Assembly (NCBI RefSeq): GCF_000158915.1
Contig: NZ_GG657754.1
Coordinates: 9,058,595-9,122,594 of the forward strand
DNA length: 64,000 nucleotides
Origin: Streptomyces himastatinicus ATCC 53653
GTDB taxonomy: Bacteria > Actinomycetota > Actinomycetes > Streptomycetales > Streptomycetaceae
Direction: 5' to 3'
This document shows, in pieces, positions 8,074-38,131 of this stretch. Each line of letters starts with the position of its first letter. The first letter of the stretch is position 1. A program made the translations under genes and the position numbers. The notes below the pieces were generated by a model. The model worked only from the letters and a program-made list of their open reading frames with translations, ran no database searches and was not told where the DNA came from.

Positions 8074-8195
8074 CGAAAAGCTCTCCCTGGCTGCCTCGGC
8101 GATGTGCTGTACACACTATGAACACCGTATGCGCCCAGGGAGTTGCACACCGTTAAGGGCGGCTTTGTGCGGAAGTGCCCCGCGGAGCGCGCTCG

Positions 8196-9425: not shown

Positions 9426-9517
9426 GACGGGTTCCCCTTCCCGCTCCACCGCTCGGCGCCGGAGAGGACCTCATGCGCCGTCTCTGGGAAAACACCGGAC
9501 AGCCGCCGAAGGTTGCA

Positions 9518-11597: not shown

Positions 11598-11770
11598 CAG
11601 CTACAGAAACACCGGGACTTCAGCAATGGTTGCACAGCCCGCGCCGCGATGCCCGGGAGCGGAGCCGGAGCGGTAGGCAAAAGGGCCGCACCGGCCGCCG
11701 GAATCGGCAGCCGGTGCGGTGTCCGCGCAGCGTGCGGGCGGGGCAGTGCGCGCGGGTCAGCGTGTACGGG

Positions 11771-13459: not shown

Positions 13460-13587
13460 CACATGGCCTCTCTGGCCGTCGTCGTGGAGGCTGCGAGCCG
13501 GTTCCGGCGCAGCGCGCGACGGCCGCGGGCGACGCTACTTGCCGCTCGACGGGCCCCTCACCCGGAATATTGCTCCGCAATTCGGGG

Positions 13588-13616: not shown

Positions 13617-13764
13617 GGCGATGCAACCCCCCGGCGCCCGACGGTGTTTCTCCTCCCGTCGGCTCGATCACGGGCCGCGCCGTGGGCCGATGTCCGGCCC
13701 CAAGACGCACAGCGGCGCGGTGCCAGCCGACGGACGCGAGAGTCGCCAGAGGAGAGGAAAGCGC

Positions 13765-15862: not shown

Positions 15863-16489
15863 GTGAACGTCAGCCCTGGAGAGGTCTACGAGAACCCCCG
15901 TTGCGGAGAGCGGATCGTGGTCCGCACGCCGGCCTCGGAAACCGGGGGCAAGCGCTCGGTGATGGATCTGTATGTCGAACCCGGCGGCTTTGCCGCGGGC
16001 GAGCACATTCATCCGATCAGCCATGAACGCTTCACCCTCGTGCGCGGAAAGCTCGCAGTCATCCAGGGCGGCCGTAAGACGGTGCTCGACAAGGTGGGAC
16101 AGAGTATTCTGATCCAGCCGGGAATCGAGCACCGTTGGTGGAACCCGACGGGTGACAAGACCTACGCCATATGCGAGGTCATCGGAAACGGGACGCGCTT
16201 CGAGCAGATGGTGATGCGTCAGCTCTTCTGCCTGGCGGTGGACGGAAAGACGAACGCCGAGGGGATGCCCAAGCTGCTCCAGCGAGCCGTGACCTCCCTG
16301 GAGTTCCAGGATGTGCTGCGGTTCGTCAAGCCGTCCTGGAAGCGCCAGCGCATTCTCTACGAGATCCTCGCACCGGTCGCCCGTCGGCTGGGGTACGTGG
16401 GGTGCAATCCCGAGTACATGAATCGCAAGCCGTCGGAGATAGCGGTCCTGGAGGATCTTCCCGACGAGGTTCTGGCCTGGCACTACTGA
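15863..16489 (+). CDS. Cupin-domain protein
   Basis: The 208-aa protein has a single conserved cupin barrel in its first half. Metal-ligand candidates are His in FAAGEHIHPISHERFTL and in IQPGIEHRWWNP. The second half (~residues 115-208) is helical with no domain I recognise. The GTG at 15863 with GGAGAGA upstream is preferred over an in-frame start at 15785, whose extension is not conserved-looking. It is the last gene before the terminator at 16566. It could be an aromatic-ring oxygenase, an isomerase or a binding protein; the sequence does not decide. Confidence 0.75.
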   Translation: MNVSPGEVYENPRCGERIVVRTPASETGGKRSVMDLYVEPGGFAAGEHIHPISHERFTLVRGKLAVIQGGRKTVLDKVGQSILIQPGIEHRWWNPTGDKTYAICEVIGNGTRFEQMVMRQLFCLAVDGKTNAEGMPKLLQRAVTSLEFQDVLRFVKPSWKRQRILYEILAPVARRLGYVGCNPEYMNRKPSEIAVLEDLPDEVLAWHY

Positions 16490-16693: not shown

Positions 16694-17341
16694 ATGAGAC
16701 CAACGACGGTATCTGAGCGCTTGTATTCGTACATGGTCGAAAACAGCGTCCCGGTCGATGAGCCGCAGCGGAATCTCATTCAGCGGACCGCCGGAGTCGG
16801 TGAGCGGTCGCGGATGCAGATCGGCACTCCGCAGGGCTCGTTCTTCACCTTCCTCACGCAGATCATGCAGGCACGGAATGCGATCGAGGTGGGCACCTTC
16901 ACCGGGTACTCGGCCCTCTGCATCGCCAAGGGGCTGCCGGTCGACGGCCATCTCCTCACCTGTGATGTGAGCGAGGAATGGACCAGCCTCGGCAGGGAGG
17001 CATGGAAAGAGGCGGGCGTCGACGAGAAAATCGAACTCCGCCTCGGCCCGGCCCTGGAGACGCTGCGTTCCCTGCCGGCCGATCCGGTCGTGGACCTGGC
17101 CTTCATCGACGCGGACAAGCAGAGCTACACCGCCTACTACGAGGAATTGGTACCCCGCTTGCGTCCCGGCGGCGTCATCCTCGTCGACAACGTCTTCTGG
17201 TTCGGAACCGTCGTCGACGACCGGGACGGAGAGGGCGCCACGATGCACGCCTTCAACGCCCATGTGGCGGCGGACGAACGCGTCGAGGCCGTCATTCTGT
17301 CGATCGGCGACGGATTGACGATGGTCCGCAAAAGGACCTGA
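16694..17341 (+). CDS. SAM-dependent O-methyltransferase, caffeoyl-CoA OMT family
   Basis: The 215-aa class-I methyltransferase has AIEVGTFTGYSALCIAKGL for SAM binding. It also has the catechol-OMT metal/active-site motifs LAFIDADKQSYTAYYEE and GGVILVDNVFWFG. Such small Mg-dependent enzymes methylate vicinal hydroxyls of catechols or phenols. It is the first gene of the presumed core operon, 33 bp before the GriI-type gene, and sits just behind the TAGAC repeats. It is one of two O-methyltransferases in the cluster. Substrate likely an aminohydroxybenzoate derivative (inference). Confidence 0.85.
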   Translation: MRPTTVSERLYSYMVENSVPVDEPQRNLIQRTAGVGERSRMQIGTPQGSFFTFLTQIMQARNAIEVGTFTGYSALCIAKGLPVDGHLLTCDVSEEWTSLGREAWKEAGVDEKIELRLGPALETLRSLPADPVVDLAFIDADKQSYTAYYEELVPRLRPGGVILVDNVFWFGTVVDDRDGEGATMHAFNAHVAADERVEAVILSIGDGLTMVRKRT

Positions 17342-17374
17342 CGCCCACATATCGGCAGCACAAGGGAGTGTCTG

Positions 17375-18190
17375 ATGCCGAGCACGTCTTCATCGGGTAA
17401 ATCACTACGACTGGCCAGACTTTCCGGGCACGGCGACGAGCGCTATCTCTTCGTGCCACTCGATCACTCCGTCTCCGACGGTCCGATCGCGACGGTGAGC
17501 GGCTTCCAGGAACTCGTCCGTGACGTGGTCGACGGCGGGGCCGACGGAATCGTCGTCCACAAGGGCCGGGCCCGGGCGCTCGCCCCCGAGCTGCTCGCGG
17601 ATTCCTCGCTGCTCATCCACCTGAGCGCCAGCACGGCACACGGCCCGGACGTCAACGCCAAGGTGCTCGTGGGCGACGTCGACGAGGCCATCAGCCTCGG
17701 GGCGGACGCGGTGAGCGTGCACGTCAACATCGGCTCCGACACCGAGGCCGACCAGTTGACCGACCTGGGCACGGTGGCCGCGGCCTGCGACCGCTGGGGG
17801 ATGCCGCTGCTGGCGATGATCTACCCACGTGGTCCGCGGGTCACCGATCCCGCCGACCCGGCGCTGGTGGCGCACGTCGTCAACATCGCCGCCGACCTCG
17901 GCGTCGACATCGTCAAGACCGTGTTCGCCTCCCCCGTGGAGCGCATGGCCGAGGTGGTCGAAAGCTCCCCCATCCCCATCATCGTCGCGGGCGGTGGGGA
18001 CGCCTCGCAGAGCGTCCAGGACTTCGCGGTCTCGGCGCTCGCGGTCGGATGCAGCGGACTCGCCGTCGGCCGGCGCGTCTTCAACTCGGCCTCCCCCCGC
18101 ACGACGGTTCAGGAGCTCGCCGAGATCGTTCATGGGCCCCAGGGCTCTCCCGTCCCCATCCAAAACTCGCGAATGGCAGGTGCACTGTGA
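17375..18190 (+). CDS. 2-amino-3,7-dideoxy-D-threo-hept-6-ulosonate synthase-like aldolase (GriI/CreI type)
   Basis: The 271-aa class-I DhnA-type aldolase has FVPLDHS (Asp30, His31), LLAMIYPRGPR and the Schiff-base lysine region DIVKTVF, then IIVAGGG and the phosphate-binding end GLAVGRRVF. In Streptomyces this family, paired with the next gene, condenses aspartate-4-semialdehyde with DHAP on the way to 3-amino-4-hydroxybenzoate (grixazone GriI, cremeomycin CreI). AAGGGAG precedes the ATG. Its stop overlaps the next start (GTGA, 18187-18190), so the two are coupled. Not a housekeeping aldolase, because of this partner. Confidence 0.9.
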   Translation: MPSTSSSGKSLRLARLSGHGDERYLFVPLDHSVSDGPIATVSGFQELVRDVVDGGADGIVVHKGRARALAPELLADSSLLIHLSASTAHGPDVNAKVLVGDVDEAISLGADAVSVHVNIGSDTEADQLTDLGTVAAACDRWGMPLLAMIYPRGPRVTDPADPALVAHVVNIAADLGVDIVKTVFASPVERMAEVVESSPIPIIVAGGGDASQSVQDFAVSALAVGCSGLAVGRRVFNSASPRTTVQELAEIVHGPQGSPVPIQNSRMAGAL

Positions 18191-19290
18191 AGCTCAGTTG
18201 GGTCGACATCCGCTCGGTCGGTTCCGCGAAGGACGCCATCGTCCAGGAGGCGATTCACGCCCGGGTGGAGGGCATTCTCGCCGCCGACCCGGCGGACCTG
18301 GAGAAGCTGCCGCCGACGGTGAAGAAGGTCCTCTTCCCGCAGGGCCAGACGCTCCCCGAGAGCTTCGGCGCGGCGGACGTCGTCATCGTCGACCCCGCCA
18401 AGCACGGGGAGCCGGCCGAACTGGCCCTCGCCCACCCCGATGTGGAGTTCGGCCGGTTCGTCGAGATCATCGACGCCGAGACGCTGGAGGACGCCTGCCA
18501 GTCCGGCCGCGTCGACAAGTGGAGCGTGCTGCTCTTCCGCGACCCCACCAAGATCCCGCTGGAGATCGTGATCGCGGCCGCCGCCCGTGCCAACGGCAGC
18601 CTCGTCACCATCGCCAAGGACGTGGAGGAAGCCGAGATCATCTTCGGGGTGCTGGAACTCGGCTCCGACGGTGTGCTGATGGCCCCGGCGAAGGTCGGCG
18701 ACGTCACCGCGCTCAAGGCCGCCGCCGAGGGCGGCATACCCGACCTCGAGCTGGTCGAGCTGGAGGTCACCGCCACCACCCACGTCGGCATGGGCGAGCG
18801 GGCCTGCGTGGACACCGCCACCTACTTCGGCAAGGACGAGGGCATCCTGGTCGGCTCGCACTCCAAGGGCATGATCCTCTGCGTCAGCGAGACCCACCCG
18901 CTGCCGTACATGCCCACCCGCCCGTTCCGGGTCAACGCCGGTGCCATCCACTCGTACACCGTCGGCCAGAACGAGCGCACCAACTACCTGAGCGAGCTGA
19001 AGGCGGGCAGCAAGGTCACCGCCGTGGACATCCACGGTAAGACCCGTCTGGTCACCGTCGGCCGGGTCAAGATCGAGACGCGTCCGCTGCTCTCGATCGA
19101 CGCGGTCGGCCCCGACGGCCGCACGGCCAACCTGATCCTCCAGGACGACTGGCACGTCCGGGTGCTCGGCCCGGGCGGCACGGTGCTCAACAGCACCGAG
19201 CTGAAGCCCGGCGACAAGGTGCTCGGCTATCTGCCGGTCGAGGACCGCCACGTCGGCTACCCGATCAACGAGTTCTGCCTGGAGAAGTAG
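18187..19290 (+). CDS. 3-dehydroquinate synthase II-like enzyme forming 3-amino-4-hydroxybenzoate (GriH/CreH type)
   Basis: The 367-aa protein matches the archaeal-type DHQ synthase II family from its start (MKLSWVDIRS) through ELGSDGVLMAPAKVGDV, MGERACVDTATYF and FRVNAGAIHSYT to the C-terminal beta domain (LGYLPVEDRHVGYPI). In actinobacteria these enzymes cyclise the GriI product to 3-amino-4-hydroxybenzoate. The GTG start overlaps the griI-type stop. A GC hairpin terminator follows at 19298. Together with the preceding gene it fixes the aromatic precursor of the cluster. Confidence 0.92.
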   Translation: MKLSWVDIRSVGSAKDAIVQEAIHARVEGILAADPADLEKLPPTVKKVLFPQGQTLPESFGAADVVIVDPAKHGEPAELALAHPDVEFGRFVEIIDAETLEDACQSGRVDKWSVLLFRDPTKIPLEIVIAAAARANGSLVTIAKDVEEAEIIFGVLELGSDGVLMAPAKVGDVTALKAAAEGGIPDLELVELEVTATTHVGMGERACVDTATYFGKDEGILVGSHSKGMILCVSETHPLPYMPTRPFRVNAGAIHSYTVGQNERTNYLSELKAGSKVTAVDIHGKTRLVTVGRVKIETRPLLSIDAVGPDGRTANLILQDDWHVRVLGPGGTVLNSTELKPGDKVLGYLPVEDRHVGYPINEFCLEK

Positions 19291-19297
19291 CACCCCC

Positions 19298-19340
19298 CCG
19301 GGCGGGCCGGTGACACGCACGGCGCCACCGGCCCGCCCGG
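19298..19340 (+). terminator. GC-rich hairpin terminator without U-tract
   Basis: CCGGGCGGGCCGGTG (19298-19312) pairs perfectly with CACCGGCCCGCCCGG (19326-19340), loop 13 nt, 7 nt after the griH-type stop. Long GC stems without a T run commonly end transcripts in Streptomyces. It separates the precursor genes from the Ada-like gene. Confidence 0.75.
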
Positions 19341-19429
19341 GCGGGAGCGGGGCCCCCTCCCCGCACTCCCCGCACGCGTACCTCCGAACGACCCCCACAA
19401 CGGAATCAGTGCATCCCGGAGGAACAGCC

Positions 19430-20344
19430 TTGGACGGGACAGTGTCGTCCTACGTCGATGACGACGAGCGGTGGAGAGCCGTTCTGCGCCGAGACCGGCA
19501 GGCAGACGGAGTCTTCTACTACTCGGTGCGGACGACGGGCATCTACAGCCGGCCCTCCTGTGTCTCCCGGCCGGCGCGCCGGGCGAACACCGTCTTCTTC
19601 ACCGACCCGGAGGCCGCCGAACGCGCCGGATACCGGCCGTGCCGCCGGTGCAGACCGCGCGAGGACAGCGCGCACGCCTCCTATGTGACCGCCATCGCCA
19701 AGACCTGCGAGCTGATCCACGAGGCGAGCGAGACACCGAACCTCGACACCCTCGCCGAGGCGGCCGGTTTCAGCCGCTTCCACTTCCACCGGGTCTTCAA
19801 GCGGCTGACGGGAGTGACCCCGCAGGCGTACGTGGCCACCTGCCGCGCCGACCGGCTGCGCCGGGTGATCTCCGAGGCCGAGACGGTGACCGAGGCCATC
19901 TACCGGTCCGGCTTCACCTCCCAGGGCAACTTCTACGCCGTGTCCCAGCAGATCCTGGGCATGACGCCGACCAACTTCCGTACCGGCGCGGACTCCATCG
20001 CCATCAGCTTCTCCCTGTCGGGGAGCCCCCTGGGCCCCGTCCTGGTCGCGAAGACCGAGAAGGGGATCTGCTCCGTGCTCACCGGCGACCAGCTTCCCGG
20101 CGACGCACTCACGGGCGACGCCGAAGCAGCGCTCGTCGGACGGCTGAGGAAGCGCTTCCCCAAGGCGCATCTCATCCGCGCGGGCCGGGAGTTCGACGAT
20201 CGGGTCGCCGCCGCCGTACGCCAGTCGGAGCCGCCGAGGCTGGGCCGGGACCTGCCGCTGAACATCCGCGTCACGGCCATGAGCGAGCGCCTCAGAAAGG
20301 CACTTCGCGAGACACCGAGCGAACCATCCGTCCAGACACGGTGA
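19430..20344 (+). CDS. Ada-like AraC regulator lacking both methyl-acceptor cysteines
   Basis: The 304-aa protein has three parts: an Ada zinc module (residues ~10-78), an AraC DNA-binding domain (~80-185, LAEAAGFSRFHFHRVFK and IYRSGFTSQGNFYAVSQQ), and only the N-terminal half of an MGMT domain (~190-290), which stops before the helix-turn-helix and PCHR site. In the zinc module the order is Y39-S40-R-P-S-C44 and C71-x2-C74, so the Cys equivalent to E. coli Ada Cys38 is Ser40 (codon AGC). The protein therefore cannot accept methyl at either Ada site. TTG start with GGAGG 7 nt upstream. It is the likely controller of the repair or resistance genes; its signal is unclear. Confidence 0.85.
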   Translation: MDGTVSSYVDDDERWRAVLRRDRQADGVFYYSVRTTGIYSRPSCVSRPARRANTVFFTDPEAAERAGYRPCRRCRPREDSAHASYVTAIAKTCELIHEASETPNLDTLAEAAGFSRFHFHRVFKRLTGVTPQAYVATCRADRLRRVISEAETVTEAIYRSGFTSQGNFYAVSQQILGMTPTNFRTGADSIAISFSLSGSPLGPVLVAKTEKGICSVLTGDQLPGDALTGDAEAALVGRLRKRFPKAHLIRAGREFDDRVAAAVRQSEPPRLGRDLPLNIRVTAMSERLRKALRETPSEPSVQTR

Positions 20345-20357
20345 AAGAGGATTGGTG

Positions 20358-22067
20358 ATGTTACTTTTTGGCACCCATCGGTCGGCGGCCCAGCGACTGC
20401 GGCTGCACACCGATCGCGGGCTCGGCGCGGGCAACTTCTTCTGGCGCGCCTGGTCGATCGCCAAGGACCGGGACCGGCCGCTCCTCTATCACCCGGATGT
20501 GACCGCCCCCGGCTGGGCGGAGACCGAGCCGCCCGGCATCTCCCTGAACGACATGCGCATCACCGTCATCCGGTATGCCACCTGGTACCGCGACCACGGA
20601 GTGCGGCCCTCCTCCCACGTCGGGGTCTACACCCGCGACGGGCTGGCCGGACTGCTCCATCACATAGCGATCAACAGCCTCGGCGCCGCCGCCGTGCACT
20701 GCAACCCCAAGATGGCGTCACCGACCGCGGCCGACTACTTCCAGCGCACCCAGACGACGGTCCTCGTCGGTGACAAGGACCTGCTCGACGGCTGCACCGA
20801 GGCCTGGTCGCAGCAGGGCATCGCCACCGCCAGGACCCCGCTGCTCCAGGACATCCGGCAGCTGGACGAGACCGCCCCGCTGCCGCCCGCCCCGCTGCCC
20901 GGATTCCCCTACCGCCATGGGCCGGACGACCTGGTGATGGTCTCCCACTCCTCCGGGACCACCGGCCGCCCCAAGGCACCGATCTTCAGCCACCGCGGGT
21001 TCTTCATCGGCAAGCGCGAGCGGCTGTGGAGCTTCCCGTCCCTGCGCACCGACCGCATGCTGACCGCCCTCCCGCACAGCCACTCGTCGGGCATCAGCTA
21101 TCTCAGCATGGCGCTGCTGCTGGGCATCCCCACCCTGATCCTGGACGATCCGAACGGACGGTCCGTGGCCCAGGCGATCAACCAGTTCCAGCCCACCTTC
21201 GTCCTCGGCTTCCCGCTGACCCTCGCGGAGATCGACGTCGCGGACATCGACCCCCGCGCCGCCCGGAACATCCACTCGTGGAACGGCATGGGCGACGCCT
21301 CGCACGAGCGGCACATCAGGCCCCTGATGGGCCTGGGCTCCCGCCCCGGCAAAACCGGCTCCCAGTACAACGACGGCCTGGGCTCCTCCGAGATGGGCAT
21401 GGTGCTCTTCCGGCAGGTGTACGTCCCCGAGTCGACCGAGTACGGACGGCTCATCGGCCACCCGGCCGGTGTGGTCCGCAAGGCCGCCGTCCTGGACGAA
21501 GAGGGGAACGAACTGCCCGACGGGCAGGCCGGGATGCTCGGCGTCCGCACCCCCAGCGTCACCCCCGGCTACTGGGACGACCCCCAGCTCAGCCAGGACT
21601 CCCTGCTGAGCGGCTACTTCCTCACCGGTGACATCGTCCGGCGGGACGAGCAGGGCCGTTTCTTCCACCTCGACCGCACGCCCGACGTGATCCACGCGGC
21701 CGACGGGCCCGTGCACAGCCTCCCTCTCGAAGAGGTCCTGCTGCTGACCACCCAGGCGCTGGACGCCGCGGTGGTGGGCGTCGAGGACCCGGATGCCCCG
21801 GGGAAGGCGGCCCCCGTCGGCATCGTCCTCTTCCGGGACAACGGTGGGGACGGCCCGGAGCGCTCCTCCGACGCCCTGCTGGAGGCCGTGAACGCCGAAC
21901 TCGGCCGCAAGCGAATGCCGTTGCTGCGCGCGCTGCTCATCGCCGCCGACCGCGAAGAACTGCCCGTGGGCGTCACCGGCAAGGTGCTCAAGCGGCAGCT
22001 CCGCGAGCGCCACCGCACCCTGCTGCACGACGCCGCCGCCCACGGGGCCGCGCCACGGGCGAACTGA
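20358..22067 (+). CDS. CreM-type AMP-dependent ligase, predicted diazotising enzyme
   Basis: The 569-aa ANL-superfamily protein has an A3 motif MVSHSSGTTGRPKAP, the central segment NDGLGSSEMG, FLTGDIVRRDEQGRFFHLDRTPDVI at the hinge, and a full C-terminal domain ending in TGKVLKRQLRER with the usual lysine. Despite its acyl-ligase look, it sits in the same set of genes (CreD, CreE, CreH, CreI types) as cremeomycin CreM, which uses ATP and nitrite to convert an aromatic amine into a diazo group. The ATG at 20358 follows AAAGAGGA. Codon 2 is TTA (20361-20363), so its translation should need bldA tRNA. Function by context and family; an acyl-CoA ligase role is the alternative. Confidence 0.82.
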   Translation: MLLFGTHRSAAQRLRLHTDRGLGAGNFFWRAWSIAKDRDRPLLYHPDVTAPGWAETEPPGISLNDMRITVIRYATWYRDHGVRPSSHVGVYTRDGLAGLLHHIAINSLGAAAVHCNPKMASPTAADYFQRTQTTVLVGDKDLLDGCTEAWSQQGIATARTPLLQDIRQLDETAPLPPAPLPGFPYRHGPDDLVMVSHSSGTTGRPKAPIFSHRGFFIGKRERLWSFPSLRTDRMLTALPHSHSSGISYLSMALLLGIPTLILDDPNGRSVAQAINQFQPTFVLGFPLTLAEIDVADIDPRAARNIHSWNGMGDASHERHIRPLMGLGSRPGKTGSQYNDGLGSSEMGMVLFRQVYVPESTEYGRLIGHPAGVVRKAAVLDEEGNELPDGQAGMLGVRTPSVTPGYWDDPQLSQDSLLSGYFLTGDIVRRDEQGRFFHLDRTPDVIHAADGPVHSLPLEEVLLLTTQALDAAVVGVEDPDAPGKAAPVGIVLFRDNGGDGPERSSDALLEAVNAELGRKRMPLLRALLIAADREELPVGVTGKVLKRQLRERHRTLLHDAAAHGAAPRAN

Positions 22068-22110
22068 CCACCACCGCCCCACCCGATCCACCCGATCAGA
22101 AGGGCCAGTC

Positions 22111-23118
22111 ATGCACGACGGACACGCCGCGCGCCAAGTCGTCGACATCATCACCGGCTCCTGGCAGTCACAGGCGCTCTACGCCGCGGTCGCCCTGGAG
22201 ATCCCCGACCACATCGCCGCCGGGCACACCACCGACACGGCCCTGGCCACGGCCACCGGCTCGGGCCCGGACGGCATCACCCGGCTGATGCGGCTGCTGC
22301 TGGCCATGGGCGTCTTCGACCGCTCGCCGGAGCACGGTTACGCGCTGACGCCGGTGAGCGAGGTGCTCCGCGCCGACAACGACGCGTCGATGCGCGACAT
22401 GATCCAGCTCTACGGCGAGGAGTTCCACACCGCGTGGGGAGCGGTGGTGCCCGCCGTCCGCACCGGATCCTCCGGCTTCGAACACGCCCTCGGCACCTCC
22501 ATCCACGCGTATCTGGCGAACGCGCCCGGCGCGGGCGCCAAGTTCCAGCGCGCCATGAACGCGGGCAACGTCTTCTTCCCCGATGTCCTGGACGCGTTCG
22601 ACTTCTCCCGCTGCACCACGGTCATGGACGTCGCGGGCGGCAGCGGCCAGTTCCTGTCGATGGTCCTGCGGGCCCACCCGCATCTCCACGGGGTGCTCCT
22701 GGACCTGCCGCATATGATCCCCGTCGCCCACGCCCACCTGGACGCGGCCGTGGGCCCCGACCGCTATGAGGCCGTCGAGGGGGACATCTTCGCCTCGGTG
22801 CCCGAGGGCGCCGACGCGTACCTCCTCTCCAGGGTGCTCCAGGACTGGGACGACGACCGGTCCGTGACCCTCCTGTCCAACATCCGCAAGGCGCTGCCCG
22901 AGGACGGCCGACTGCTCGTCGTGGAGCGGGTCATCCCCGAGGAAGGCGCCCCGGAGCTGCTTCCGCTCCTGTACGACCTCCATCTCCTCATGGCCGCGGG
23001 AGGGCGCGGGCGGACCCTGGACGGTTACCGCGACGTCCTCACCGCGGCCGGGCTGCGCCTGGAATCCGTCCACCCGCTGGCCCTCGAAACCACGTTGCTG
23101 GTCGCGGCCGCCGCCTAG
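22111..23118 (+). CDS. SAM-dependent O-methyltransferase (hydroxyindole/aromatic OMT family)
   Basis: The 335-aa protein has an N-terminal dimerisation winged helix (DGITRLMRLLLAMGVF), the SAM site VMDVAGGSGQFLSMVL, acidic LLDLPH, and the catalytic region SRVLQDWDDDRSVTLLSNI. The tail is LLVAAAA. Members methylate phenolic hydroxyls in many Streptomyces pathways; cremeomycin has one (CreN). The usual catalytic His of this family is replaced by Gln in LQDWDDD, which occurs in some members. It is 43 bp after the CreM-type gene and 58 bp before the first FAD monooxygenase. Likely installs a methoxy group on the hydroxylated aminobenzoate. Confidence 0.87.
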   Translation: MHDGHAARQVVDIITGSWQSQALYAAVALEIPDHIAAGHTTDTALATATGSGPDGITRLMRLLLAMGVFDRSPEHGYALTPVSEVLRADNDASMRDMIQLYGEEFHTAWGAVVPAVRTGSSGFEHALGTSIHAYLANAPGAGAKFQRAMNAGNVFFPDVLDAFDFSRCTTVMDVAGGSGQFLSMVLRAHPHLHGVLLDLPHMIPVAHAHLDAAVGPDRYEAVEGDIFASVPEGADAYLLSRVLQDWDDDRSVTLLSNIRKALPEDGRLLVVERVIPEEGAPELLPLLYDLHLLMAAGGRGRTLDGYRDVLTAAGLRLESVHPLALETTLLVAAAA

Positions 23119-23176
23119 GCGCCGCGCCGGGCCCCCGACGCCGACGACTCACGAGAAGGCGAATACGAGGCACTCG

Positions 23177-25036
23177 ATGAACCTCTCACCCCCAACCCGA
23201 CCGAGCGACGACCCCCGGGTCCTGGACGTCCCCGTGCTGATCATCGGCGGCGGCGGCGCGGGCCTGACGGCGTCCGTCTTCCTCTCCGACCTCGGCGTCG
23301 GCTCGTTGCTCGTCGAGCGCCACGCGACGACGTCGATCCAGCCCAAGGCGCATATCCTCAACGCCCGCACCATGGAGATCTTCGGCCACCACGGACTGGC
23401 CCGGGACATCTACGCCGAGGGCTCCCCGCCCGCCAACTGCGGCGCCATGGCCTGGCTGACCAGCCTCGGCGGCGACGAGCCGTACGACCGCAAGGTGCTC
23501 CACCGCGCCGATGCCTACGGCGGCGGCGACCTGGCCGAGCGGTACGCCGAGGCGTCCGCGTACCCCCACGCGAACCTCGGCCAGCGCTGGCTGGAGCCGC
23601 TGATCCGCCGCCATGCCGAGGAGCGCAACCCGGGCGGGATCCGCTTCGGACACGAGATGGTCGAATTCGAGGAGGACGGGGACAGCGTCACCGCGACGAT
23701 CCTGGACCGCGACGCGGACCGTACCTACCGCGTCCGCGCCGGATATCTGATCGCCGCCGACGGCGGCCGCTCGGTGAGCAAGCGGCTCGGCATCCGCATG
23801 CTGGGCACCCCCACCTTCCTGGAGTGGATCAACCTTCACATCCGGGCCGACTTCTCCGAGTTCGTCCCCTTCGACGACACGGTGGTCAACCGCGTCTCCA
23901 GCCTCGCCGACGACGGCAGCCTGGAGCACTGCGGTGTCGTGCCCATGGGCCCCAAGCAGTGGGGACGCCACTCCGAGGAGTGGACGCTGATGTTCTCCCG
24001 GCCGCCCGGCACCCGGGAGGCGGCCGAGCTGGACGACGAGACGGTCGTCAAGATGGTCCGCCGGACGCTGAAGCTCCCTCAGGACCATCCGATGGAGGTG
24101 CAGAGCATCAGCCGCTGGCCCGTGGAGGGCACGGTCGCCGAGCACTTCCGCTCCGGTCGCGTCTTCCTCGTCGGCGACGCCGCCCACCGGCATCCGCCGT
24201 CCGGCGCGCTCGGCCTCAACACCGGCGTCCAGGACTCCCACAACCTGGCCTGGAAGCTGGCCCGGGTGCTCTCCGGCGACGCCGCGCCCGCGCTGCTCGA
24301 CAGCTACGAGGCCGAGCGGCGCCCGGTCGCCGAACGCGTCGTCGAGCGGGCGCTGTTCTCGCTGTTCAACCAGATCGCCTTCACCGCGGGCACCGGCGTG
24401 GTCCCGGGGGCCCGCCCCGAGTGGAACCGGGCCCAGATGACCGCCCTGTTCTCCGACACGCCCGACGGCCGGACCCGGCGCGCGGTCCTCGCCGAGTACT
24501 TCGAGACCAACCGGATCACCACCGCCCACCTGGGCCTGGAGATGGGCTACGACTACGCCGAGGCCGGGTTCGTCACCGACGACGGCACCGAGCGGCCCGA
24601 GCCGGATCCGCTCGGCCTCGACTACGTTCAGTCCTGCCGCCCCGGCGGCCGGATGCCGCACGCCTGGCTGCGGCGCGGCGGGGAGCGGACGGCGACCCAC
24701 GATCTCATCGACCACGGGGCGTTCCTGCTCCTGGCCGGTGCGCGGGGCGAGAGCTGGGTGCGCGCCGCGGCCGAGATCTCCGGAACCCACGGCCCGGCCG
24801 TCACCGCCCACGCCGTGGGCCCGGACCACGAGGTGGCCGACCCCGACGGCGTATGGGCCGCCCTGCGCGGCCACGGCGAGGAAGGGGCCGTCCTGGTCAG
24901 GCCCGACGGGTTCGTCGCCATGCGGCTGCCCTCGGCGTCGCCGGACCCGGTGCGGGACCTGCGCCGGGGGCTCGACGCGGCCCTGGGCCGCGCCGTCCCC
25001 GTCACCGCCGCGCCGGGTGCGGAGGGGGACCGCTGA
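23177..25036 (+). CDS. FAD-dependent aromatic hydroxylase (phenol/PHBH-type), CreL-like candidate
   Basis: The 619-aa group-A flavoprotein monooxygenase has an FAD-binding GGGGAGLTASVFLSDLG (residues ~22-38), the DG motif LIAADGGRSVSKRLG and the GD motif GRVFLVGDAAHRHPPSGALGLNTGVQD. A thioredoxin-like C-terminal domain ends the protein. Such enzymes hydroxylate phenols ortho to an OH using NAD(P)H and O2. In cremeomycin one such enzyme hydroxylates the ring of 3-amino-4-hydroxybenzoate. Here two are encoded back to back; which one acts on which position is unknown. The next gene starts 1 bp after the stop, so expression is coupled. Confidence 0.86.
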   Translation: MNLSPPTRPSDDPRVLDVPVLIIGGGGAGLTASVFLSDLGVGSLLVERHATTSIQPKAHILNARTMEIFGHHGLARDIYAEGSPPANCGAMAWLTSLGGDEPYDRKVLHRADAYGGGDLAERYAEASAYPHANLGQRWLEPLIRRHAEERNPGGIRFGHEMVEFEEDGDSVTATILDRDADRTYRVRAGYLIAADGGRSVSKRLGIRMLGTPTFLEWINLHIRADFSEFVPFDDTVVNRVSSLADDGSLEHCGVVPMGPKQWGRHSEEWTLMFSRPPGTREAAELDDETVVKMVRRTLKLPQDHPMEVQSISRWPVEGTVAEHFRSGRVFLVGDAAHRHPPSGALGLNTGVQDSHNLAWKLARVLSGDAAPALLDSYEAERRPVAERVVERALFSLFNQIAFTAGTGVVPGARPEWNRAQMTALFSDTPDGRTRRAVLAEYFETNRITTAHLGLEMGYDYAEAGFVTDDGTERPEPDPLGLDYVQSCRPGGRMPHAWLRRGGERTATHDLIDHGAFLLLAGARGESWVRAAAEISGTHGPAVTAHAVGPDHEVADPDGVWAALRGHGEEGAVLVRPDGFVAMRLPSASPDPVRDLRRGLDAALGRAVPVTAAPGAEGDR

Positions 25037-25037
25037 C

Positions 25038-26732
25038 ATGACCGACGTCCAGCGCACTCCCGTCGCCATCGTGGGCGCCGGCCCGGTGGGCATCATGCTC
25101 GCGCTCTTCCTCGACCGCTACGGCATCGAGTCGGTCCTGTTCAACGCCGAGCCCACCATGGAGGACAAGCCCCGGGGCAACACCCACAACGCCCGCACCA
25201 TGGAGCACTACCGGCGCCTGGGCATCTCCGGCCAGATCCGGCGGCTGGGCCCGCCCGCCGATCACACCCTCGACATCGCCTACTTCACCCGCTACAGCGG
25301 CTTCGAACTGTCCCGGCTGACGCTGCCCTCGCCGGGGGAGCGGATGCGGGCGCTCGCCGGTACGCCCCGTACCGACCAGACGCCCGAGCCGGTGCACCGC
25401 GCCAACCAGATGTACGTCGAGAAGTTCCTCTTCGAACACGCCATGACCCGCCCCAACATCACCTTCCGCTTCGGCTGGCGGGTGACCGGCCTCAAGCAGA
25501 ACGCCACCGGCGTCACCCTCGAGGCCGAGAGCGTCACCGGCGGGGCCCGGGAGACCTGGCGGGCGCCGTACGCGGTGGGCTGCGACGGCGGCCGCAGCTT
25601 CGTACGCCGCGCCCTGGGCGTGCACTACGAGGGACCCGGATCGCTGGAACAGGAGATCCTGGGGCGCCGCGCCACCGCCGCCCATCTGCGGCTGCCGACC
25701 TTCCACTCGGACGTGTTCACCGGCCGCCGCGCCTGGAGCTACTGGTCGCTCAACCCCGACCTGGTCATGAACCTCATCGCGCTCAACGGCCGCGACGAGT
25801 TCTTCCTGCTCACCAGCTCCGTCGACCCGGACACCACCAACGCCGCGGAACTGTCCTCGCTGGTACGCCGCGCGGCGGGCACCGCGCTGCCCGTCGAGGT
25901 GCTCAGCCACCGCCCCTGGACACCGGGCGCCGCCCTGGTCGCCGAGCGCTTCACCGTGGGCCGGGTGTTCCTCGCGGGCGACGCGGCCCATCTGTTCACC
26001 CCCAACGGCGGCTTCGGCATGAACACCGGCGTGGACGACACGGCCAACCTCGCCTGGAAGCTGGCCGGGACGCTCCAGGGCTGGGGCGGCCCCGGACTGC
26101 TCCGCTCGTACGAGAGCGAGCGGCGGCCGATCGCCCTGCGCAACACCGCCGCCGCCCGCGAACTCAACACCGGCCTCGCCGACATCGAGCGCCCCCGCGT
26201 CATGGAGGACGACTCGCCGGAGGGTGCGACGGCGCGGGCCCGGGTCGGCGCGCTCGTCCGCGCCTACGGGGAGCGCACCCACTCCATCGGCGTGCAGCTC
26301 GGCGCCCGGTACGACGGCTCCCCGCTCATCGATACCGACGAGGAGCCGCCGAGCGACTCCATGGGCACCTACACGCCCACCGCCATCCCCGGCGGACGCG
26401 CCCCGCACGTATGGCTCGACGACTGGCGCGGCCCCGGCAGCTCGCTCTTCGACCGCTTCGGCCCCTACTACACGGTGCTCCGGCTGGGCCCCGAGCCGCC
26501 ACCCGTCAAGGAGTTGGAGGCCGCCGCCCAGGCCGCCGGGATGCCGCTGCGCACCCTGGACGTCGAGGATCCGGTCGTCCGCGACCTCTACGAGCGCGAT
26601 CTCGTGCTCATCCGCCCCGACCAGCACGTCGCCTGGCGCGGCAACGCCCTGCCCACCGACCCCGGCGACCTCGTGGCCCAGGTGACGGGACAGCGGGCGG
26701 CGGGCGCGGCGCGTGACGGGGACTCCGCATGA
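25038..26732 (+). CDS. Second FAD-dependent aromatic hydroxylase
   Basis: The 564-aa group-A flavoprotein monooxygenase starts with TPVAIVGAGPVGIMLALFLDRYG, then AVGCDGGRSFVRRALG and GRVFLAGDAAHLFTPNGGFGMNTGVDDTANLAWKL. The N-terminal ARTMEHYRRLGI block and size place it with phenol or aryl-carboxylate hydroxylases. It is clearly diverged from the preceding monooxygenase, so not a recent duplicate. Its stop overlaps the CreE-type start (26729-26732). Having two ring hydroxylases suggests a product more oxidised than, or different from, cremeomycin. It could also do an oxidative decarboxylation. Confidence 0.85.
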   Translation: MTDVQRTPVAIVGAGPVGIMLALFLDRYGIESVLFNAEPTMEDKPRGNTHNARTMEHYRRLGISGQIRRLGPPADHTLDIAYFTRYSGFELSRLTLPSPGERMRALAGTPRTDQTPEPVHRANQMYVEKFLFEHAMTRPNITFRFGWRVTGLKQNATGVTLEAESVTGGARETWRAPYAVGCDGGRSFVRRALGVHYEGPGSLEQEILGRRATAAHLRLPTFHSDVFTGRRAWSYWSLNPDLVMNLIALNGRDEFFLLTSSVDPDTTNAAELSSLVRRAAGTALPVEVLSHRPWTPGAALVAERFTVGRVFLAGDAAHLFTPNGGFGMNTGVDDTANLAWKLAGTLQGWGGPGLLRSYESERRPIALRNTAAARELNTGLADIERPRVMEDDSPEGATARARVGALVRAYGERTHSIGVQLGARYDGSPLIDTDEEPPSDSMGTYTPTAIPGGRAPHVWLDDWRGPGSSLFDRFGPYYTVLRLGPEPPPVKELEAAAQAAGMPLRTLDVEDPVVRDLYERDLVLIRPDQHVAWRGNALPTDPGDLVAQVTGQRAAGAARDGDSA

Positions 26733-28741
26733 GCCGGCACAGCACGAGCCGGGGCGAACTGAAGGTGGGAATCGTCGGCGTCGGGCCCCGCGGTCTGTCG
26801 GTGCTGGAGCGGATCTGCGCCAACGAGCGCAAGTCCGGCTCGCACCGCGAGGTGTCCGTACACGTCGTGGACCCCTTCCCGATGGGCGCCGGGCGGGTCT
26901 GGCGCACCAGCCAGTCCGAGCAGCTGCTGATGAACACGGTCGCCTCGCAGATCACCCTGTTCACCGACGACAGCGTGGAGATGGACGGCCCGGTGGAACC
27001 GGGCCCCAGCCTCTACGAGTGGGCCCGCGCCCTTGGCCCGGACGACAACGACGGCGCCGACGAACGCACGCTGGCCGAGGCCCGTCGGCTCGGCCCCGAC
27101 GCGTACCCCACCCGGGCCTTCTACGGCGTCTACCTGAACAGTGTCTTCCGCCAAGTGGTGGCCGACGCCCCGCCCCACGTCACCGTCACGGTCCACCAGG
27201 CCCAGGCCATCGGCCTGGACAACAGCGGACCGCTCGCCGACGGTCCGCAGACCCTCACCCTCGACAACGGCGACCGGCTGACCGACCTGGACACGGTCGT
27301 CCTCGCCCAGGGCCACGTCCCCGCCCTCCCCGCGCCCCACGAGGAGGAACTCGCCCGTACCGCCGCCGAGCACGGCCTGCTCTACATCCCGCCCGCCAAC
27401 CCAGCCGACGTGGACCTCAGCGGCATCGAACCGGGCCAGACCGTGCTGCTCCGCGGCCTCGGGCTGAACTTCTTCGACCACATGGCCCTGCTCACCGCCG
27501 GCCGGGGCGGCACCTTCCGGACCGAGGACGGACGCCTCGTCTACGAGCCCTCCGGCCGGGAGCCCAAGATCTACGCGGGGTCCCGGAGGGGCATTCCGTA
27601 CCACGCCCGCGGAGAGAACGAGAAGGGCGCCCACGGGCGTTACCCGCCGCGGCTGCTCACCCCCGCGGTGATCGCCGGGCTGCGGCGGCGGGCCGTCGAC
27701 GGCGAGCGGGTGCACTTCGGGACCGACCTGTGGCCGCTGATCGCCAAGGAGGTCGAGAGCGTCTACTACGGCACCCTGCTGGAGGTACGGGGCCGCGCCG
27801 CGGACCGTGAGCCGTTCACCGAACGGTATCTGGCCGCCCCGGCGGGCGAGGCGGAGCGCCGCCTGCTGGACGCGTACGGCTTCGCGCCGGACGACCACTG
27901 GAGCTGGGACGCCCTCGCCCGTCCGCAGGGCAACCGGACGTACCCCAGCCCGGCCGCGTTCCGGCAGTGGCTGCTGGACTACCTCCGCGAGGATGTGCGC
28001 GCCGCCCGCGCGGGCAATGTGAGCGGCCCGCTCAAGGCGGCCCTGGACGTGCTGCGCGACCTCCGCAACGAGATCCGGCTCGCCGTCGACCACGGCGGCC
28101 TGGAGGGCAACTCGTACCGCGACGAGCTGACGGCCTGGTACACCCCGCTCAACGCCTTCCTCTCGATCGGGCCCCCGGCCTCGCGCATCGAGGAACTCGT
28201 CGCCCTCATCGAGGCGGGCGTGGTCCGGATCATCGGGCCCGGCCTCCAGGTCACCGTCGACGAGACCCTCCCGTCCTTCGTCGCCGGGTCGGACACCGTG
28301 CGGGGCGGGCGGATCCGGGCGAGCGTCCTCATCGAGGCCCGGCTGCCCGAGCCGGACCTGCGCCGCACCGCCGACCCCTTGCTGCGCCATCTGCTCACCA
28401 CGGGGCAGTGCCGCCCGTACGACATCCCGGGCACCTGCGGGACGACCTACCGGACCGGCGGACTCGCGGTCACCGAGCGGCCGTACCGGACCGTCGACGT
28501 CCACGGCAGCCCTCATCCGCGCCGGTTCGCCTACGGGGTCCCCACCGAGGCCGTGCACTGGGTGACCGCGGCCGGGATCCGGCCCGGCGTCAACTCCGTG
28601 ACGCTCGGCGACTCGGACGCCATCGCGCGCGCCCTGCTGAGTATCCGGGCCGCGAACTCGCCCCTCCAGGTGGTGCGGGGCGGGGCGCCGCAGGGGGGCC
28701 ACGACGGGCTGCACGGCAGCCAGAGGGAGGCGACCGCATGA
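26729..28741 (+). CDS. CreE-type FAD-dependent L-aspartate N-monooxygenase
   Basis: The 670-aa protein starts with an FAD-binding GIVGVGPRGLSVLERICA and VHVVDPFPMGAGRVWR, then GLGLNFFDHMALLT near the middle and a long C-terminal part with PHPRRFAYGVPTEAVHWVTA. This is the large FAD/NAD(P) oxidoreductase family that includes CreE. CreE oxidises the amine of aspartate through N-hydroxyaspartate to nitrosuccinate. The strongest support is the partner: its stop overlaps the start of a CreD-type lyase (ATGA, 28738-28741), the constant pairing of the aspartate-nitrosuccinate pathway. It supplies nitrite for the diazo group. Confidence 0.9.
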   Translation: MSRHSTSRGELKVGIVGVGPRGLSVLERICANERKSGSHREVSVHVVDPFPMGAGRVWRTSQSEQLLMNTVASQITLFTDDSVEMDGPVEPGPSLYEWARALGPDDNDGADERTLAEARRLGPDAYPTRAFYGVYLNSVFRQVVADAPPHVTVTVHQAQAIGLDNSGPLADGPQTLTLDNGDRLTDLDTVVLAQGHVPALPAPHEEELARTAAEHGLLYIPPANPADVDLSGIEPGQTVLLRGLGLNFFDHMALLTAGRGGTFRTEDGRLVYEPSGREPKIYAGSRRGIPYHARGENEKGAHGRYPPRLLTPAVIAGLRRRAVDGERVHFGTDLWPLIAKEVESVYYGTLLEVRGRAADREPFTERYLAAPAGEAERRLLDAYGFAPDDHWSWDALARPQGNRTYPSPAAFRQWLLDYLREDVRAARAGNVSGPLKAALDVLRDLRNEIRLAVDHGGLEGNSYRDELTAWYTPLNAFLSIGPPASRIEELVALIEAGVVRIIGPGLQVTVDETLPSFVAGSDTVRGGRIRASVLIEARLPEPDLRRTADPLLRHLLTTGQCRPYDIPGTCGTTYRTGGLAVTERPYRTVDVHGSPHPRRFAYGVPTEAVHWVTAAGIRPGVNSVTLGDSDAIARALLSIRAANSPLQVVRGGAPQGGHDGLHGSQREATA

Positions 28742-30144
28742 CCGCTCCGTTCGACGGCGGCCGGGACACCGGGCTGCTCTCACCCGTGCGCGCGGGCACT
28801 CCCGTCGAGGCGGACGTGGCGGACGAGGCATGGCTCCAGGCGATGCTCGACGCCGAGGCGGCCCTGGCCCGAGCCCAGGCCACGTTGGGAACCGTCCCGG
28901 CGGAGGCCGCGGCCGCCATCACGGCGCAGGCCCGCGCGGACCGGTTCGACCCGCGGGCGCTGGCCCTCGTCGCCCGTGAGACGGCGAACCCCGTCGTGGG
29001 CCTCGTCCAGGTGCTGACCCGAGCGGTAGCGGCCACCGCCCCCGCGGCGGCCGAGTACGTCCACCGCGGCTCCACCAGCCAGGACGTCTTCGACACCGGG
29101 GCCATGCTGGTGGCCGCCCGCGCCCTGCGCCGGATACGGGCCGATCTGGACCGGACGTGCGCCGCGCTGGCCGTGCTCGCCACGGACCACCGCGACACGC
29201 TCATGGTCGGCCGGACCCTCGCCCTGCACGCCGTCCCCACGACCTTCGGGCTCAAGGCGGCCGGCTGGCGCCATCTGCTGCTGGACGCCGTCGCACGGAT
29301 CGACCGCCTGCTCGACGGGGGCCTGCCGGTCTCGCTCGGCGGCGCCGCGGGCACCCTGGCCGGGTACCTCGAATACGCGGCGCTGGACGACGGGCCGCGG
29401 GGGGAGTCCGGCACCGCCGAGTACCTCGACCGGCTGGGCGCCGCGTTCGCCGAGGAGACCGGGCTCGCCCGGCCCGTGCTGCCGTGGCATGCGCTCCGTA
29501 CGCCGCTCGCCGACCTCGGGGCCGTGCTGTCCTTCACCGCGGGGGCGCTCGGCAAGATCGCCGTGGATGTGCAGTCGATGACCCGGACCGAGGTCCAGGA
29601 GGTCACCGAACCGGCCGCCCCCGGACGCGGCAGCTCCTTGTCCATCCCGCACAAGCGCAACCCGGTGCTCTCCACCCTGATGCGCAGCGCCGCCCTCCAG
29701 GTCCCGGTGATGGCCACGGGGCTGACGCAGAGTCTGCTGTCGGAGGACGAGCGGTCCGCCGGGGGCTGGCACGCCGAGTGGCTGCTGCTGCGCGAGTGCC
29801 TGCGGCTGGTCGGCGGGGCGGCCCACACCGCCGTCGAACTCGCGGAGGGCCTGGCCGTCCGTCCCGCGCGGATGCGGGACAACGCCGATCTGACCGGTGC
29901 CCGGGTGGCGTCCGAGCGGGTCGCGGCCGTGCTGGCGCCCCGGCTCGGCAAGGCCCGGGCGAAGCATCTGCTCTCCGAGGCGGCCGCGGAGGCCGAGCGG
30001 GACGGGCTCCCGCTCGCCGAGGTGCTCGCCGCGCTCCCCGACGTGGCCGCCCATCTGGGCGCCGAGGACCTGCGCGAACTGCTCGACCCGGCCCATTACA
30101 CGGGCGCGGCGGGGCCGTTGGTGGACCGCGCGCTCAAGCGCTGA
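28738..30144 (+). CDS. CreD-type nitrosuccinate lyase (fumarase/ASL superfamily)
   Basis: The 468-aa lyase resembles 3-carboxymuconate cycloisomerases. It has the superfamily signature GRGSSLSIPHKRNPV (residues ~300-315), EYVHRGSTSQDVFDTGAML for the second conserved region and TLALHAVPTTFGLKAAGW for the third. CreD-type members eliminate nitrous acid from nitrosuccinate to give fumarate. Assignment over a cycloisomerase rests on the coupled CreE-type gene and absence of protocatechuate genes. GAGGGAGG precedes the ATG. It ends the core catalytic set; metK follows after 57 bp. Confidence 0.9.
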   Translation: MTAPFDGGRDTGLLSPVRAGTPVEADVADEAWLQAMLDAEAALARAQATLGTVPAEAAAAITAQARADRFDPRALALVARETANPVVGLVQVLTRAVAATAPAAAEYVHRGSTSQDVFDTGAMLVAARALRRIRADLDRTCAALAVLATDHRDTLMVGRTLALHAVPTTFGLKAAGWRHLLLDAVARIDRLLDGGLPVSLGGAAGTLAGYLEYAALDDGPRGESGTAEYLDRLGAAFAEETGLARPVLPWHALRTPLADLGAVLSFTAGALGKIAVDVQSMTRTEVQEVTEPAAPGRGSSLSIPHKRNPVLSTLMRSAALQVPVMATGLTQSLLSEDERSAGGWHAEWLLLRECLRLVGGAAHTAVELAEGLAVRPARMRDNADLTGARVASERVAAVLAPRLGKARAKHLLSEAAAEAERDGLPLAEVLAALPDVAAHLGAEDLRELLDPAHYTGAAGPLVDRALKR

Positions 30145-30201
30145 CCGGCACCCGCCCACCTCACCCCACCCGTCCGTATCACCTCAGCGGAGGAACTCAC
30201 C

Positions 30202-31425
30202 ATGGCACTGCGCCTGTTCACCTCGGAGTCCGTGACCGAGGGCCACCCCGACAAGATCGCTGACCAGATCAGCGACTCCATCCTCGACGCGCTCCTGAAG
30301 GAGGACCCGGCCTCCCGGGTCGCCGTCGAGACCCTGATCACCACCGGCCTGGTCCATGTCGCCGGTGAGGTGACCACGAAGGCGTACGCCCCGATCGCGA
30401 CGCTCGTCCGCAACGCGATCCTCGACATCGGCTACGACTCGTCGGACAAGGGCTTCGACGGCGCCTCCTGCGGCGTCTCGGTGTCCATCGGCTCGCAGTC
30501 CCCGGACATCGCCCAGGGTGTCGACTCCGCCTATGAGCTGCGGGTGGAGGGTGCCACCGACGGTGACCTAGGGGACGAGCTGGACAAGCAGGGCGCGGGC
30601 GACCAGGGCCTGATGTTCGGCTACGCGTGCGACGAGACGCCCGAGCTGATGCCGCTGCCGATCAACCTGGCGCACCGGCTCTCCCGCAGGCTGTCCGAGG
30701 TCCGGAAGAACGGGACCATGCCGTATCTGCGGCCGGACGGCAAGACCCAGGTCACCATCGAGTACGACGGCCACAAGGCGGTCCGTCTGGACACGGTCGT
30801 CGTCTCCTCGCAGCACGCACCCGACGTCGACCTCGACGCGCTGCTGACGCCGGACATCCGCGTGTTCGTGGTCGAGCCGGTCCTGCGGGAACTGGCCGAC
30901 TGCGGCATCAAGCTGGACACCGAGGGCTACCGGCTGCTGGTCAACCCGACCGGCCGCTTCGAGGTCGGTGGCCCGATGGGTGACGCGGGCCTGACCGGTC
31001 GCAAGATCATCATCGACACCTACGGCGGCATGTCCCGTCACGGTGGTGGCGCGTTCTCCGGCAAGGACCCGTCCAAGGTCGACCGCTCCGCCGCGTACGC
31101 GATGCGCTGGGTGGCGAAGAACGTCGTGGCCGCGGGTCTCGCGCAGCGCTGCGAGGTTCAGGTCGCGTACGCGATCGGCAAGGCCGAGCCGGTGGGTCTG
31201 TTCGTGGAGACCTTCGGTACCGCCACGATCGACGCGGAGAAGATCGAGAAGGCCATCTCCGAGGTCTTCGACCTGCGTCCGGCCGCGATCATCCGCGACT
31301 TGGACCTGCTGCGTCCGATCTACGCCCAGACGGCGGCCTACGGTCACTTCGGCCGTGAGGACTCCGACTTCACCTGGGAGCGCACCGACCGCGTCGACGC
31401 CCTCCGCGCGGCGGCCGGGCTGTAG
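30202..31425 (+). CDS. metK: S-adenosylmethionine synthetase
   Basis: Full-length (407-aa) MetK, making SAM from methionine and ATP. All landmarks are present: [21 protein letters not shown] at the N-terminus, [22 protein letters not shown], and the [19 protein letters not shown] nucleotide/phosphate loop. It is intact and highly conserved. Its position directly after the CreD-type gene and before adenosine kinase and metF suggests a dedicated copy that feeds the two O-methyltransferases, rather than the housekeeping gene. Whether another metK exists lies outside the window. Confidence 0.97.
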
Positions 31426-31474
31426 TCCACAGGTTTTTGTGACCCCACCGACCGCTCCCAAGGAGGACACCGAC

Positions 31475-38095: not shown

Positions 38096-38131
38096 CGTCG
38101 TGCTCTCATCGCTCGTCCGCTGTGGCTTCAC

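Follow-up and report, generated by a model that had tools for sequence, protein, structure and literature searches.

The two described systems closest to the locus analyzed here are the cremeomycin (cre) gene cluster of Streptomyces cremeus and the clusters for streptozotocin. The first joins the aspartate-nitrosuccinate nitrite pathway (CreE and CreD) to genes for 3-amino-4-hydroxybenzoate (3,4-AHBA), a CreM-type ligase, and an aromatic methyltransferase. Streptozotocin is described as methylating DNA (PMC9570651) and as carrying an N-nitrosourea built by SznF (PMC11177257). The locus lies in a 64,000-nucleotide stretch of the Streptomyces himastatinicus ATCC 53653 genome (the window). It contains all of the cremeomycin components listed above together with genes for repair and sensing of methylated DNA. 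A preliminary description covering positions 16694–30144 had read it as a cremeomycin-type diazo cluster. We consider it likely that the product of the cluster is an N-N compound, derived from 3,4-AHBA, which either methylates DNA itself or gives off an agent that does, and that a methyl-sensing sigma circuit provides self-protection, because the repair and sensing module tracks one clade of CreM-type ligases and also adjoins SznF-type genes.

The center of this module is a gene for an extracytoplasmic function (ECF) sigma factor (11010–11597, minus strand; Pfam) that overlaps by 4 bp a gene for a fusion protein (10198–11013, minus strand), in which an MGMT domain with the acceptor motif PCHR is joined to a four-cysteine Ada zinc (AdaZn) site. 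Immediately behind the fusion, as in relatives, lies a 183-amino acid MGMT that also has a PCHR motif (MGMT 3; 9605–10156, minus strand). We searched 392 genomes of the genus, that of S. himastatinicus (G000) included, scoring three candidates per genome for CreE and CreM, six for the fusion, and eight for PF09859. The ECF-coupled MGMT-AdaZn fusion was present in 13 genomes: five with the CreM clade of the window, seven in which it is near an SznF-type domain, and one (G339) in which it is an orphan. CreM-like ligases (E ≤ 1e-60) occur in 66 of the 392 genomes. The fusion accompanies all five whose CreM is at least 67% identical to that of the window and none of the remaining 61; the chance of drawing exactly those five from 66 is about 1 in 8.9 million if relatedness is ignored.

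Members of this separate CreM clade are 64–71% identical to the window's ligase, and the fusion was found in the same genome or record in all 14 clade genomes or records examined. Nine of these lie beyond the 392 genomes (L083, L084, L085, L086, L087, L088, L089, and plasmids L126 and L127). Clade loci outside the set came from one scan (eight) and from plasmid records (three), after which duplicates were removed; L090 equals G286 and L159 equals G179, and each pair was counted once. Four of the 12 scanned loci (L091–L094; 22–25% identical) were left out as non-clade, with L091 and L092 kept as outgroups. Gene order varies among clade subgroups and some copies reside on plasmids, which indicates that the association between the fusion and CreM outlasted rearrangement.

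One alternative is a cremeomycin-type cluster making an o-diazoquinone acid with hydroxyl and methoxy groups; the repair genes would then be incidental or directed against general diazonium damage. Indeed, CreI, CreH, a CreM-type ligase, a methyltransferase, CreE, and CreD are all present, and the cremeomycin-like genome G115 has the same core. However, G115 and G361, both of which encode CreI, CreH, CreM, CreE, and CreD, lack the fusion genome-wide, and the stretches read of their clusters gave no MGMT-AdaZn or ECF match. The CreM of G115 is only 44–47% identical to that of the window, and the module is instead common to SznF-type clusters. We therefore regard this alternative as unlikely: the core enzymes named in the preliminary description stand, whereas a separate CreM clade with a repair and sensing module is no longer best read as making a simple aryl diazo or o-diazoquinone compound.

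Nitrosation of cellular amines can yield methylating species, and CreE and CreD make nitrite according to their family roles. The repair genes could thus guard against accidental methylators arising from pathway nitrite and not against the product. Yet CreE homologues (E ≤ 1e-60) occur in 321 of the 392 genomes as against 13 with the fusion, leaving at least 308 CreE genomes without it, so nitrite formation alone does not require the module. Among the CreE matches listed, only G000, G301, G286, and G179 pair CreE with the fusion within 25 kb of one contig. Moreover, SznF is reported to form its N-N bond without nitrite (PMC11705231), and its clusters nevertheless carry the module. Accidental nitrosation is thus a very unlikely explanation. 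At this frequency CreE was too common to mark such clusters by itself, as was PF09859 (98 of 392 genomes); in the stretches fetched, the PF09859 carriers G161, G307, G074, and G311 showed no cre genes. The stretch around the close CreE homologue of G145, which stops at a contig end, contains only CreD and CreE. Outside the genus, a Klebsiella michiganensis plasmid (NZ_CP048110.1; L128) carries CreH-, CreI-, and CreM-like genes (36–39% identical) accompanied by an MFS gene and an aminotransferase.

The link to streptozotocin-type clusters comes from the seven fusion genomes in which the fusion lies 2–11 kb from a PF14518 domain. Two of these loci, in G365 and G226, were read and encode a PF14518 plus Cupin_2 protein with a PRMT_C-domain methyltransferase upstream, matching the arrangement of methyltransferase (SznE) and SznF described for streptozotocin (PMC11429834, PMC11177257); the other five were assigned by their PF14518 match. 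The PF14518 protein of G365 scores 837 bits against SznF (6m9r), an N-nitrosating enzyme with HO-like diiron and cupin parts. Like the window, these clusters contain the ECF sigma factor and the MGMT-AdaZn fusion (plus MGMT); four of the seven also have Oxygenase-NA, and in six the sigma gene is preceded by the same ECF motif. Two of them, G365 and G090, further resemble the window in having CreH/CreI, a BBE oxidase, and the 417-amino acid ANL (adenylating) enzyme that we designate AMPb417. In G365, a DDE_5 transposase open reading frame (ORF) separates the CreI side from the SznE side, which may therefore have come together secondarily; each side has ECF sites. These observations suggest that the N-N module (SznE/SznF or CreM/CreE/CreD) is exchangeable on a partly shared scaffold while self-protection is kept. 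G365 (L108–L109, L173) and G090 (L110–L111, L174) are possible sources of 3,4-AHBA-linked nitrosoureas.

Promoter sites tie the sigma factor to biosynthetic and efflux genes. The window contains four exact copies of TGCAAC-N14-CGGTGTT, located before the genes for an SDR oxidoreductase (8121–8147, minus strand), AMPb417 (9491–9517, minus strand), the ECF sigma factor itself (11608–11634, minus strand), and the MFS efflux protein (13622–13648, plus strand). In shuffled controls of the window with two mismatches allowed, the mean was 0.97 sites and four were reached in 1 of 100. The 11.03-Mb genome has five exact sites, four of them in the cluster, and none for the reversed pattern. The fifth (G000:C2:10899962-10899988; L180 13962-13988) is near a contig end and directly before another MFS gene, downstream of which are an amidase-like fragment and a HAD-like hydrolase, both recognized by eye, as well as a fragment of an MGMT that shares 65% identity with MGMT 1 of the window. 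Across 21 loci of both clades, the shorter form GCAAC-N15-GGTGTT lies 10–11 nt before the sigma gene in 18, with variants in G301 and L088 and none in G186. These loci hold 49 sites of the shorter form compared with 0 for the reversed control. The sites precede genes for sigma (18), SDR (6), AMPb417 (3), MGMT (3), MFS (2), BBE (2), and SARP (1), and 14 precede no gene matched by a window protein. Because the motif was derived from sigma upstream regions, its 18 sigma-gene sites are there by construction and the other 31 are not. In L087 (S. adustus), a second ECF-type site at about 10456–10520 is followed by an apparent duplicated start of the sigma gene.

Alignment of 18 fusions revealed that the four Ada cysteines are invariant in all of them. 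The MGMT acceptor cysteine is retained in 14 and replaced by alanine (PAHR) in three SznF-type fusions and by serine (PSHR) in G339, so the Ada zinc site is the constant part of the protein. The gene for the fusion occupies the position where that of an anti-sigma factor usually sits, and the protein is a candidate methyl-sensing partner of the ECF sigma factor. In Escherichia coli Ada, methylation of Cys38 is described as turning the zinc site into a switch (PMC10957082). A second regulator, encoded inside the biosynthetic operon (19310–20344, plus strand; family match), combines AdaZn with an AraC helix-turn-helix. It has serine in place of the methyl-acceptor cysteine Cys38, and so does each of the four other copies found; at this position G179 and NBC_01022 do not differ. 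The genome's other Ada, outside the operon, keeps the acceptor cysteine. The in-operon protein is possibly a methyl-independent pathway regulator.

The identities of the core enzymes, all encoded on the plus strand, were assessed by family models and solved structures. The CreI/GriI-type aldolase for 3,4-AHBA (17375–18190; DhnA-type) scored 301 bits with PRK07226 and 274 with the BagB/FevI model (cut-off 500), and the CreH/GriH-type 3,4-AHBA synthase (18187–19290; DHQS-II type) scored 684 with the BagC/FevH model (cut-off 750); both are thus below the exception cut-offs of the Bag/Fev models. The overlapping CreE/CreD pair likewise agrees with the nitrite pathway proposed earlier. CreE (26729–28741; NAD_binding_9) matched one PDB entry at E ≤ 0.001, 8cp2 (704 bits), a FAD-binding protein that we take to be the aspartate N-hydroxylase described in PMC10404684. 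CreD (28738–30144; Lyase_1/ADSL_C), the one enzyme compared with a true S. cremeus protein, is closest to S. cremeus CreD (5xny; 578 bits). The best muconate cycloisomerase reached 285 bits, and we rejected a carboxymuconate cycloisomerase identity, which the preliminary description had named as a refuting outcome.

For the CreM-type ligase (20352–22067), the top NCBIfam model is the AvaA6 diazotase at 340 bits, below the equivalog cut-off of 975, followed by a FadD-type family at 151. Four PDB chains scored 263–300 bits, one of them itself named FadD, and the next, FadD5, scored 83. In a tree that was midpoint-rooted and had three distant ANL rows as outgroup (L091 and L092 among them), the ligase falls inside a 40-row group (support 100/99; long branches flagged). 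This group includes ligases adjoining CreE/CreD in G115, G361, and G271, whereas the second ANL protein of the window and two distant ANL rows fall outside it. On the model scores, structures, and tree we rejected an ordinary acyl-CoA ligase, the other refuting outcome foreseen, and the earlier diazotase assignment holds. The AvaA6 match is also the point in favor of a different role, a diazotization-dependent deamination as in avenalumate or p-coumarate formation, in which the diazo group is formed only in passing and no N-N bond is left in the product. Its 340 bits are far under the model's cut-off, and methyl-specific repair would be left without a reason; we give this role almost no weight.

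The whole cluster spans approximately 6.4–38.1 kb of the window. An O-methyltransferase ORF opens at position 16694, and the CreD ORF closes at position 30144. The earlier inventory (CreI/CreH, ligase, methyltransferases, FAD hydroxylases, and CreE/CreD) was confirmed in place and is correct but incomplete, having missed the in-operon Ada-type regulator and both flanks. A run of plus-strand genes from OMT3 through MetF (16694–33435) has intergenic gaps of at most 58 bp and 4-bp overlaps at four joints, including CreI/CreH, FMO2/CreE, and CreE/CreD; for FMO2 and CreH, the family scans used ORFs extended upstream. Besides the enzymes above, the run encodes, by family match, OMT3 (Methyltransf_3; 16694–17341), OMT2 (Methyltransf_2; 22111–23118), which adjoins CreM in the clade members read, two FAD_binding_3 aromatic hydroxylases (FMO1, 23177–25036; FMO2, 25038–26732), the S-adenosylmethionine (SAM) synthetase MetK (30202–31425), a PfkB-family kinase (31475–32458) that is possibly an adenosine kinase, and methylenetetrahydrofolate reductase (MetF; 32455–33435). 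Relatives retain MetK and PfkB, some also MetF, and the plasmid relative NBC_00503 (L126 28731-32216) additionally carries MetH.

Upstream of this run are genes for a SARP-type regulator (Trans_reg_C plus BTAD; 6370–7275, plus strand; Pfam), which relatives also have, and, by family match, for the SDR oxidoreductase (7324–8073, minus strand), AMPb417 with its short C terminus (8196–9449, minus strand), which is retained in relatives as well as in G365 and G090, a BBE-type FAD oxidase (11771–13462, minus strand), and the MFS efflux-type transporter (13765–15228, plus strand). A cupin protein (15863–16489, plus strand) is retained in relatives. The same gene set recurs across other Streptomyces, which shows that the cluster is not a chance assembly.

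A 29-kb stretch contains nine genes of methylated-DNA repair type, including one embedded in the biosynthetic operon. In addition to those near the sigma factor and in the operon, they comprise two Oxygenase-NA (PF09859; Pfam) copies (33973–34752, plus strand; 36278–37015, minus strand), an AlkB-type 2OG-Fe(II) dioxygenase (34754–35413, minus strand; family match), a partial stand-alone AdaZn domain in which the first cysteine is replaced (35970–36281, minus strand; Pfam), and, by family match, MGMT 1 (37012–37542, minus strand) and MGMT 2 (37586–38131, minus strand). Within the 11-Mb genome, the window accounts for both PF09859 copies found, four of nine MGMT-domain hits, and three of five AdaZn hits. 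Between AlkB and AdaZn, positions 35410–35973 encode a 187-amino acid protein with a weak Peripla_BP_6 match that recurs beside Oxygenase-NA genes in G161, G307, G074, G286, and G301. A short ORF with an AlkA_N match (38410–38751) is probably the remnant of an AlkA/Ada gene, and the plasmid relative NBC_00464 (L159 38053-38703) has a gene annotated as DNA-3-methyladenine glycosylase I at the cluster edge.

On the basis of family roles and closest structures, we infer the following pathway. CreI and CreH would make 3,4-AHBA, which FMO1, FMO2, AMPb417, OMT3, and OMT2 would decorate, activate, and methylate. CreE would oxidize aspartate to nitrosuccinate, from which CreD would free nitrite, and the CreM-type ligase would use ATP and nitrite to nitrosate or diazotize an amine; MetK, the kinase, and MetF would regenerate SAM. 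The product's methyl group would then leave as a methyl electrophile, for example from a methyltriazene, an N-methyl-N-nitroso group, or an o-methoxyaryldiazonium, among which the genes do not distinguish. Ada, MGMT, AlkB, and Oxygenase-NA proteins would protect the host, and the MFS pump would export the product. The MGMT-AdaZn protein may hold or release the ECF sigma factor, such that methylation damage switches on genes for the sigma factor and fusion, AMPb417, the SDR, and efflux.

Several observations weigh against a methylating product guarded by such a circuit. Clade members are related, so the counts above are not independent events. The fusion and creM are on different contigs in G046 and in the genome of L086 (creM on C14, fusion on C35), although we infer that the G046 parts form one cluster. 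With the MGMT cysteine lost from some copies, the fusion cannot be regarded as a repair enzyme in every genome. The methyl-acceptor cysteine is missing from the in-operon Ada, to which G286 and several other relatives gave no match. The presence of repair genes is not proof that the product, whose structure and chemistry are predicted here from the genes, itself methylates DNA; small alkyl lesions of other kinds are also substrates of AlkB and MGMT. No methylamine source was recognized among the annotated genes, although no systematic search was aimed at one. Finally, no ECF site precedes the 34–38 kb repair array even with two mismatches, and G161, G307, and G074 contain an Oxygenase-NA/MGMT/AdaZn cassette in the absence of cre genes, so that the array could be a general adaptive cassette. 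Together with G339, where the ECF/MGMT-AdaZn pair stands without recognized biosynthetic neighbors, this cassette would fit a diazo cluster that happens to adjoin an unrelated, ordinary adaptive-response island. Against that, the CreM clade retains the sigma/fusion pair and repair genes through changes of gene order, on chromosomes and plasmids alike, and the sigma factor's sites precede AMPb417, SDR, and efflux genes; coincidental proximity is highly improbable.

The cluster is real and non-random. The nitrite/diazotase reading is correct within its limits, and the genes for repair and sensing suggest that the product methylates. Its structure, the reaction that would render the methyl group transferable, and the mechanism of sensing are proposals drawn from the genes. 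It is tempting to speculate, as a possibility we hold more tentatively than DNA methylation as such, that the product is a natural counterpart of dacarbazine and temozolomide. Its aryl N-N warhead (methyltriazene, N-methyl-N-nitroso, or o-methoxyaryldiazonium) would be formed from 3,4-AHBA by CreM and aspartate-derived nitrite, in evolutionary terms a different solution from SznE/SznF on a scaffold that both share in part, with production and export gated by a methylation-sensing sigma factor and its anti-sigma-like MGMT-AdaZn partner. Among the openly licensed full-text matches listed, we found no nitrite/diazotase-pathway natural product described as a DNA methylator. The match listed for natural methyltriazenes was apparently unrelated; those listed for triazenes with nitrite clusters or for a DNA-methylating diazotized product led no further; and aryl diazonium with DNA alkylation gave no match in this literature. 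If the proposal is true, a single family of at least 14 clusters, found in Streptomyces and Streptacidiphilus, would make methylating cytotoxins of a new class and show how a producing organism survives such a compound, and the promoter motif and the sigma/MGMT-AdaZn pair would serve as markers in the search for others.

A probable relative of the cluster is already in print. A region of NZ_CP047019.1 (A7X85_RS43410-43525), one of three candidates located through SARPs, is described as having CreI-, CreH-, CreE-, and CreD-like genes together with a sigma factor, two MGMTs, and a 2OG oxygenase that resemble their counterparts in streptozotocin clusters (PMC12224297). By this description the region probably belongs to the same family as the window's cluster. 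In contrast to the present reading, the 2025 section on this region draws no inference of DNA methylation or self-resistance, nor does it contain the clade-wide association, the promoter sites, or the DNA-methylator proposal (PMC12224297). ECF122 sigma factors are described as having a neighboring 6-O-methylguanine-DNA methyltransferase, no cognate anti-sigma factor, and an uncharacterized mechanism (PMC8999054). The window's sigma factor also has MGMT genes nearby, a likeness of gene neighborhood; unlike the ECF122 description, its partner is a translationally coupled MGMT-AdaZn fusion and its sites also precede biosynthesis and efflux genes. The window's cluster is set apart from the cremeomycin type, represented for the module by the cremeomycin-like G115 that lacks it, by a separate CreM clade, the sigma/MGMT-AdaZn pair, the Ada regulator, the AlkB/Oxygenase-NA/MGMT array, and the methyl-cycle genes. 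Streptozotocin-type clusters share the module with the window and differ in the N-N step, which is assigned to SznF in them and to CreM with nitrite in the window's cluster, where SznF is absent and all four PF14518 hits of the genome lie outside the window.

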